Origin: Halichondria panicea | Lineage: Eukaryota > Porifera > Demospongiae > Suberitida > Halichondriidae | Direction of reading: 5' to 3' | Length of the DNA stretch: 64,000 bases | NCBI RefSeq assembly: GCF_963675165.1 | Contig: NC_087387.1 | Span: forward strand, 2,097,501-2,161,500 | Part shown: piece by piece, positions 43,587 through 45,203 of the stretch | Numbering within the stretch: the stretch's first letter is position 1 | Layout of the letters: every line of letters begins with the position of its first letter | Program-made: the position numbers and the translations under genes | Notes under the pieces: model-generated | Databases searched by the model: none | What the model was told of the DNA's origin: nothing | The model's input: only the letters and a program-made list of their open reading frames with translations

Positions 43587-45203
43587 ATGGCTGAGAAAGA
43601 AGCTCTGAAGAAACTCAATTCTCAACTCGAATGCTCCCTTTGTCTCAACACCTTAAAGCAGCCGAAACTATTGCCTTGTTTTCATGTGTTTTGCAAGTCG
43701 CCGTGTCTGGAGAAACTAGTGACCAAGGATGGACGCTCCCTCACTTGTCCCACTTGCCTACACATTGTCCCATTGTCGAAGAGGGGAGTGACTGGACTGC
43801 AATCAGACTTCCACATTGACCACTTGTTTGAGATAAGAGATGCTTTTAACAAGGCCGAAGGTGATAATGATACGAACTGTGGTAACTGTGAAAATGGCAA
43901 AGCCACTGGGTACTGTAACGACTGTGGGGACTTTTTATGTAACAAGTGTCAAGCTGCTCATAAGAAAATAAAATATCTACGGAATCATAAACTACTTTCA
44001 CTCGATGAACTCAAAGCTCAAATGACTAGCCTGGTCCCTCCCAAGAAGGCTATCCCCCATTGCCCCAAACACTCGGAGAGTGACCTTAAAATATACTGCG
44101 AGACCTGCTCCACTCTCATTTGCATAGACTGCACCATTCGTCTCCACAAAGACCACAACTACGATCTGGTCGCTGATGTGCTGACCAAGCACAAAAAAGA
44201 ACTTGTCTCCAGTCTCAAACCAGTCAAGGAGAAGCTGGATAGTGTACAACGAGCTCTGAAGGGCTTTGACACAAGAGCCAAGGCAATTCGCAATCAGAGG
44301 CCCACAATTGAAGCTGATATCCACAAGAAGATTGACGAACAACATCGACTGTTGGACCAACGAAGGGCAGAGCTTGTTGTAGAGCTAGAGGTGCTGACTC
44401 AGCAGAAGCTAGAGGGTCTGGCAGCACAGAGGGATCAAGTGGAGATCACTCAGGTGAAACTGGCCAGCTGTCTAGAGTACGCGGAGAGCGGTCTCAAAAG
44501 AGGCACAGATGGTGAAGTACTTGAAATGAAATCTTCCGTTCTGAAGAGAGTCGAACAGATTTCCATCGAATTCAATCCTAACACTCTTCAGCCACAGACT
44601 GTGGCTGACATGGAACTGCTCACTAAAAGAAAAGAACCTCTCCAACAAGCTTGTCGATTTTTCTTAGAGATTGGTCGTAGTGGTTTGTTCAGCAGCCTTA
44701 CGGTAGAAGATGGTCTGACAGACGCTACACCTGAAAAAGAAAACACTGTAGTAATGAACAAAAGCAAACTCAACCTTAAAGCTGAACTTGTGCGTATTGA
44801 GAGTAAAGACACATTGAAATGTAAAGTGGTTGAGCACCAACATGACCAGCAACGCATATCAACTCAAGCAAAAAGCATCTGCATGTCTGGTGGATCTGGA
44901 CGTGGCAAAGGAGGAAAAGGACTTGGAAAGGAAGGTGCCAAGCTCCATAGAAAGATTCTTCGTGACAACATCCAGGGAATCACTAAGTCTGCTATCAGAC
45001 GTCTGGCTCGCCGTGGTGGTGTCAAGCGTATCTCTGGACTGATCTATGAGGAGACACGCGGTGCCCTGAAAGTGTTCCTTGAGAACGTCATCCGTGATGC
45101 TCTCACCTACACTGAGCATGCCGAGAGAAAGACTGTGACTGCTATGGATGTCGTCTATGCTCTGAAGAGGCAAGGACGCACTCTGTATGGATTTGGAGGC
45201 TGA
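43587..45203 (+). CDS. TRIM-type RING/B-box protein fused to histone H4
   Basis: One intronless ORF of 538 residues. The RING finger spans about 16-57 (C16, C19, C31, H33, C36, C40, C54, C57), predicting ubiquitin E3 activity. Two B-boxes follow at about 97-140 (CGNC...[12 protein letters not shown]) and 158-195 ([17 protein letters not shown]). A coiled coil runs to about 340, then a truncated segment where sponge TRIM proteins usually continue into filamin and NHL repeats. From about residue 431 the ORF becomes a complete histone H4 ending TLYGFGG. Relative to the neighbouring H4 it has G13E, R17L, P32S, V57A, V70L and K77E. The start context aagccATGG is good. Likely a gene chimera; whether it enters nucleosomes is unknown. 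Confidence 0.9.

Follow-up and report, generated by a model that had tools for sequence, protein, structure and literature searches.

The fusion frame and its surroundings

A single open reading frame on the forward strand of the window, which is the whole 64,000-nucleotide stretch of Halichondria panicea DNA that was analysed, spans positions 43587–45203 and encodes a protein of 538 aa whose TRIM part runs in frame into an entire histone H4. The frame starts with an ATG at 43587 and ends with a TGA at 45201–45203, with no stop codon back to position 43575. A preliminary description of this DNA had reported such a fusion in one uninterrupted frame, and this was confirmed. The features of the locus, in window positions, are as follows.

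38430–38741, + strand: canonical histone H4 gene, about 5 kb upstream of the fusion and the closest relative of its H4 half
38764–38809, + strand: 3' stem-loop of the canonical H4 gene (30.2 bits, below the Rfam gathering score of 34; E 4.4e-5)
42371–43477, no strand: probable DNA transposon of the inverted-repeat type, bounded by two TATTCTAG repeats; it lies about 100 bp upstream of the fusion ATG and is missing in the second copy of the locus
43527–43536, + strand: sequence like the 5'UTR 3' splice site of TRIM-NHL paralogs (CCTCAG, then ATAACCC); approximate, placed by eye
43587–45203, + strand: TRIM-H4 fusion open reading frame, 538 codons plus TGA
43632–43757, + strand: RING finger, aa 16–57 (Pfam PF00097), keeping the eight Cys/His shared by 28 of 28 paralogs
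43878–43991, + strand: first B-box, aa 98–135 (Pfam PF22586)
44058–44165, + strand: second B-box, aa 158–193 (Pfam PF00643)
44166–44660, + strand: presumed coiled coil, from aa 194 to about 358, judged from family and position and homologous to TRIM-NHL paralogs
44661–44851, + strand: truncated filamin domain; start approximate, end set by the end of homology to TRIM-NHL paralogs
44852–44894, + strand: junction, in which some 20 bases of H4 5'UTR have become coding; its small indels, compared with the other copies, are multiples of three
44895–45200, + strand: histone H4, residues 1–102, with six substitutions relative to the canonical H4 of the same genome
45204–45285, + strand: 3' flank, homologous to the canonical H4 3' flank and without a Histone3 stem-loop match

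The RING finger typical of TRIM (RBCC) proteins was detected with PF00097 at 29.1 bits (cut-off 21), and the B-boxes with PF00643 (57.5 bits, two stretches, best at aa 158–193) and PF22586 (best at aa 98–135), so that the RING and two B-boxes named in the preliminary description were borne out. The TRIM part continues beyond the coiled coil, the last TRIM feature named there, and breaks within a filamin domain. The junction contains an in-frame Met at 44883. In a phmmer search against PDB, aa 435–538 aligned to histone H4 (E 3.1e-55), and the best 60 of 111 matches to the fusion protein all fell within the H4 half; the Pfam match at the C-terminus (aa 469–531) was to CENP-T_C/histone fold.

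Elsewhere in the window, a 707-codon frame on the reverse strand (40163–42286) has motifs that we take to be those of a LINE reverse transcriptase. Three similar long tandem frames, also on the reverse strand, occupy 52916–62741 (53530–54522 with 52916–53593; 56045–57583; 61299–62741) and may encode proteins resembling the IgGFc-binding type. Three further, closely similar frames lie on the forward strand at a spacing of about 10 kb (147–704, 9904–10524 and 19754–20314).

The TRIM half is of the TRIM-NHL kind but cut short

The TRIM half had at least 97 scored matches (267 candidates) in its own genome (131 Mb, 39 contigs). These TRIM-like frames lie on C3, C11, C17 and other contigs, many of them in tandem (C3, 5.88–6.31 Mb; C11, 0.9–1.3 Mb). 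The closest paralogs are on C3, with 77–81 % identity to the TRIM half and frames of mostly about 740–800 aa; among them L016 (741 aa) is typical, with a RING, B-boxes, a filamin domain (372–466) and NHL repeats. DNA homology between the fusion and the TRIM-NHL paralogs runs from about 43560 to 44851, and because it ends at 44851 the break falls inside the filamin domain. No NHL match was found by Pfam in the fusion protein, and neither the 64-kb window, by tblastn, nor 19 kb surrounding the second copy yielded an NHL remnant. The NHL propeller that marks the TRIM-NHL subfamily is thus missing.

Synonymous distances between the fusion and seven tested paralogs were 0.31–0.43, with pairwise nonsynonymous/synonymous ratios of about 0.23–0.36, although most of this divergence may be older than the fusion. 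Four shorter TRIM relatives (L055–L057 of 454, 426 and 504 aa, and L023 of 517 aa) were checked by eye and none had a histone end. All 13 PF00125 matches in the genome were in open frames of 45–165 aa, revealing no other histone fusion.

The H4 half is complete but altered

Seven H4 matches were found in the genome, namely the fusion, three canonical genes with identical proteins (window 38430, C4 and C15) and three pieces in the second copy of the locus. The H4 half is full length, with 102 residues from Ser1, and is 94 % identical to the three canonical genes. The preliminary description had called it complete with all of its tail lysines, and K5, K8, K12, K16 and K20 are indeed all present; but the completeness is qualified by six substitutions relative to the canonical H4 of the genome (G13E, R17L, P32S, V57A, V70L and K77E, numbered without Met) and by four extra residues (MSGG) ahead of SGRGK. 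The C-terminus of the fusion therefore has the full length of a nucleosomal H4 without its extreme amino acid conservation. R17 and K77 are basic positions of importance for H4 partners and DNA.

At the DNA level, the fused H4 is 88 % identical to the canonical gene of the window over 44864–45285, including part of the 5'UTR and of the 3' flank. Histone3 scores of the canonical genes were 30.2 (L008, in the window), 33.8 (L010) and 36.4 bits (L009), so that two of the three stem-loops were just under the gathering score, and no RNA family reached that level in a scan of the whole window. At the fusion (L007) there was no Histone3 match at E≤5, and thus no sign of a replication-dependent stem-loop, and H4 promoter homology was not found there. 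An independently expressed H4 half is also unlikely, since H4 homology begins at about 44864 and leaves out TATATAAA (at 38344), and TATAAA is absent in 44700–44900.

The join and a second copy of the locus

The sequences at the join are GATCAACTATC in the paralogs, TCTCAACTCATC in the H4 5'UTR and ATATCAACTCA in the fusion. A six-base TCAACT at the join is common to the TRIM paralogs and the H4 5'UTR, which suggests that the join may have formed by microhomology. H4 homology in the fusion extends from about 20 bases ahead of the H4 ATG to beyond the position of the canonical stem-loop, and a sequence resembling an intron acceptor is retained on the 5' side of the TRIM part; both point to copying at the DNA level. 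Retroposition of an H4 mRNA into a TRIM gene is not favoured, because the homology reaches the genomic 3' flank past the stem-loop position. Nor is a retrocopy of a spliced TRIM mRNA, because the acceptor-like sequence of the paralog 5'UTR is still present.

A second TRIM-H4 copy was found at C11:2227991–2229950, 87 kb from the fusion, within a region (C11:2225543–2238000, L044/L045) that matches window 37318–53233 in pieces. That region consists, in order, of the end of an upstream gene, an H4 gene with an internal deletion at C11:2226651–2226663, the TRIM-H4 unit and then a stretch with 97 % identity (gapped) to at least 53233. The part of the window at about 39.7–43.5 kb, with the reverse-transcriptase-like frame and the probable inverted-repeat element, has no counterpart there. 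Indels in the TRIM part of the second copy shift the frame across the RING and first B-box, with six stops if it is read through. A 515-codon frame nevertheless remains open, with two in-frame TRIM-to-H4 junctions; it runs from the second B-box through an H4 lacking 45 bases and a repeated TRIM piece to a further H4 that lacks one base close to its end. The survival of this frame in a broken copy shows that long open frames can persist here without a RING.

All three TRIM-to-H4 junctions, one in the fusion and two in the second copy, are in frame. One second-copy junction is close to an unmodified H4 5'UTR, in frame with TRIM; the other has gained nine bases, while the fusion copy has lost three and gained 12. 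The 5'UTRs of canonical H4 genes can themselves be open, for 21 codons ahead of the Met in the gene of the window and 115 on C15 (L009, C15:4929307–4929612). As the 115 codons ahead of this ordinary H4 are open by chance, read-through into H4 is not in itself rare.

Divergence between the two copies is uneven. Downstream (window 45300–53233 against C11 to 2238000), 43 of 7901 non-H4 bases differ; two blocks upstream have 58 differences in 1017 bases and 89 in 836. Because the downstream stretch is so much less diverged, an exchange of sequence between the copies, or stepwise copying, is probable. The diverged second copy, with its two further in-frame junctions, also makes a single assembly error an unlikely source of the fusion.

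Selection on the two halves

The paralog sample was taken from the matches numbering at least 97, of which 30 had loci, one being the fusion itself. TRIM substitutions were polarised with 28 of the 29 fetched paralogs (L031 was left out for an internal TGA), excluding codons 1–5, codons beyond 422 and those gapped in the second copy; the neutral expectation was 0.676 nonsynonymous (N). Since the split of the two copies, the TRIM half of the fusion has acquired 5N:8S assigned substitutions, about 13 in 417 codons, with a further 3N and 3S ambiguous. This corresponds to an omega of 0.30 (0.08–1.04; P=0.029 against neutrality), with P=0.11 in the worst case, in which the ambiguous sites are assigned against constraint (8N:8S), and P=0.003 in the best. 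The TRIM part of the second copy had 9N:5S (omega 0.86), and the ratios of the fusion and the broken copy did not differ significantly (Fisher, 0.26).

Within aa 1–200 of the fusion, none of the 28 conserved Cys/His residues has been lost (P about 0.02). Changes are seen at H235 and H371, which lie outside the zinc fingers. At the 221 positions invariant in the 28 paralogs the fusion differs at 32, six of which are end gaps, while single paralogs differ at 0–11, so that it has clearly diverged further than they have. No frame-breaking change was observed on the fusion branch, where 3.1 to 6.2 were expected (P 0.05 to 0.002) from 0.25–0.35 indels per substitution in the flanks, 24 branch substitutions and three assumed rates.

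The preliminary description had proposed a dN/dS check of the H4 half. Compared with the canonical H4 of the window it showed 6N:5S, an omega of 0.54 (0.14–2.23) that is not separable from neutrality (P 0.19–0.27). Comparisons of the window H4 with the other two canonical genes gave 0:19 and 0:26, significantly different from 6:5 (Fisher, P 0.0008 and 0.0002), and 0:17 was also found among the canonical genes. The H4 half thus lies outside the usual constraint of H4 and is inseparable from neutral. Its count on the fusion branch was 5N:3S, and both halves of that branch summed to 10N:11S (P=0.042). At H4 codons 22 and 33 the fusion, the second copy, C4 and C15 agree and the canonical gene of the window is the odd one out, so these changes may belong to the branch of that gene, in which case only three synonymous ones would remain on that of the fusion. 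From these counts, we read the RBCC half as weakly constrained and the H4 half as not kept as a nucleosomal histone. The earlier statement that the histone half 'has not simply decayed' holds for the reading frame, which is intact, but the argument from the intact tail was too strong given the lost constraint.

Flanks and expression signals

The upstream stretches of two C3 paralogs (4.3 and 3.6 kb) share long mutual homology, but their match to the fusion locus is limited to about 100 bp surrounding the start codon, and a paralog promoter is not recognisable upstream of the fusion by comparison with them. A piece with ends like those of the inverted-repeat element lies at 39526–39585. No AATAAA or ATTAAA was found in 45204–46300, and none follows the canonical H4 in 38742–39300 (0.56 kb) either. 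The retained acceptor-like sequence points to expression, while the unrecognisable promoter, the probable transposon about 100 bp upstream and the lack of AATAAA/ATTAAA within 1.1 kb point against it.

Origin and possible role of the fusion

The best-supported reading, held tentatively and a little short of an even chance, is of a young chimeric gene formed by rearrangement at the DNA level which, if translated, would give a truncated regulatory or dominant-negative TRIM protein with a passenger H4 tail. A TRIM-NHL gene copy would have broken within its filamin domain and been joined to a duplicated H4 gene at the 5'UTR, so that the TRIM frame entered H4; the locus would then have been duplicated, one copy having an open frame from RING to H4 and the other losing its RING. 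The translated product would be a RING/B-box/coiled-coil ligase without the substrate-binding NHL propeller. Presumably able to dimerise with itself or with many full-length paralogs, it might, if expressed, act as a truncated, regulatory or dominant-negative TRIM, its H4 end being mostly a passenger tail and no longer a nucleosomal histone. This reading is preferred to that of a new chromatin protein because the H4 part changes far faster than an ordinary histone. Next in rank, and unlikely although not by much, is a dead or unexpressed chimera, a functionless by-product of a rearranging locus whose frame is open by chance and youth. The near-neutral H4 half (6N:5S, with two of the five synonymous changes perhaps on the branch of the canonical gene), the broken sister copy, the unrecognisable promoter, the probable transposon upstream and the youth of the fusion, with its 13 or so assignable TRIM substitutions, are all consistent with it; the absence of stops and frameshifts where 3.1–6.2 were expected, junction indels in multiples of three, the complete set of conserved zinc ligands and a TRIM-half ratio under neutral argue against it.

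A third reading, which we consider doubtful, is that H4 has replaced NHL as the recognition module and would recruit H3, histone chaperones, H4 readers or a foreign H4-binder for ubiquitination by the RING. The architecture resembles that of TRIMCyp, in which a host protein follows RBCC and takes the place of the C-terminal recognition domain (PMC6677749). The H4 is whole and read in frame, in the second copy it is even doubled within one frame, and a role requiring the fold only would bear more substitutions than a nucleosomal one. However, constraint on the H4 half is not separable from neutrality, and R17L and K77E alter basic positions that are important for H4 partners and DNA. A bolder form of this proposal, rated slightly lower still, has the H4 end as a histone-fold bait that would capture host or parasite H4-binding proteins, with TRIM-NHL arrays as a source of domain swaps and the second copy, one frame of which holds two H4 units, as another try. 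Deposition of the H4 half in nucleosomes, placing a ubiquitin ligase there, is very improbable. All 102 of 102 H4 residues and tail lysines 5, 8, 12, 16 and 20 are present, but there are six changes in a protein that is identical among the three canonical genes, no histone stem-loop match, and a large RBCC multimer that would sit on the N-terminal tail. The roles put forward in the preliminary description, a ligase on chromatin or an H4 decoy, are accordingly not supported: the H4 half has 6N:5S against 0:19 and 0:26, R17 is lost, K77 is now Glu, the NHL end is gone, and the inherited promoter is unrecognisable with a probable transposon close upstream; the H4 half may nevertheless have some role. 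Least probable of all is an assembly artefact joining two genes, as a diverged copy at a distance of 87 kb shows the same join at two further junctions.

Comparison with known systems

Among the titles listed in literature searches none describes a TRIM-histone fusion, in line with the earlier statement that no described one was known. The main text of Marin (2012; PMC3503706) on TRIMs does not contain the word 'histone', and passages of a Halichondria panicea paper (PMC8242945) mention no TRIM gene. A scan of viral contigs for the fusion gave six pattern matches, none of them confirmed.

The fused H4 resembles a canonical replication-dependent H4 in its full length and 94 % identity, but differs in its six substitutions, fused N-terminus and lack of H4 promoter homology or a stem-loop match. 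TRIM-NHL proteins form subfamily C (TRIM2, TRIM3, TRIM32, TRIM45, TRIM56 and TRIM71; Marin 2012, PMC3503706). The fusion shares their RING, two B-boxes and the start of the filamin domain, but its filamin domain is shortened and NHL is missing, with H4 in its place. In primates, young TRIM genes have arisen by segmental duplication (PMC3228819), a likely parallel for new TRIM genes, although those are copies of one kind whereas a foreign domain has been added here.

The closest known parallel is TRIMCyp, the TRIM5-cyclophilin A fusions of owl monkeys, macaques and some rodents, of which inactive versions are also known (PMC6677749). In both cases the RING, B-box and coiled coil of a TRIM precede a complete housekeeping protein, which stands in for the C-terminal recognition domain, and the fusion is young and lineage-restricted (PMC6677749); in the sponge, NHL is missing and H4 follows in frame. 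CypA was retrotransposed (PMC6677749), whereas the H4 join looks DNA-level, since the genomic 3' flank beyond the stem-loop region is homologous too. The partners also differ, being CypA and a SPRY-type TRIM there, and H4 and a filamin-NHL TRIM here. As a dated and duplicated chimera, the locus allows its halves to be compared, the ligase half looking constrained and the histone half freed from the near-invariance of H4. Even if dead, it is a clear record of chimeric gene formation beside an H4 gene. If expressed, it would carry the TRIMCyp principle of a ligase core with a housekeeping sensor beyond mammals and SPRY-type TRIMs, to a TRIM-NHL gene and a histone.
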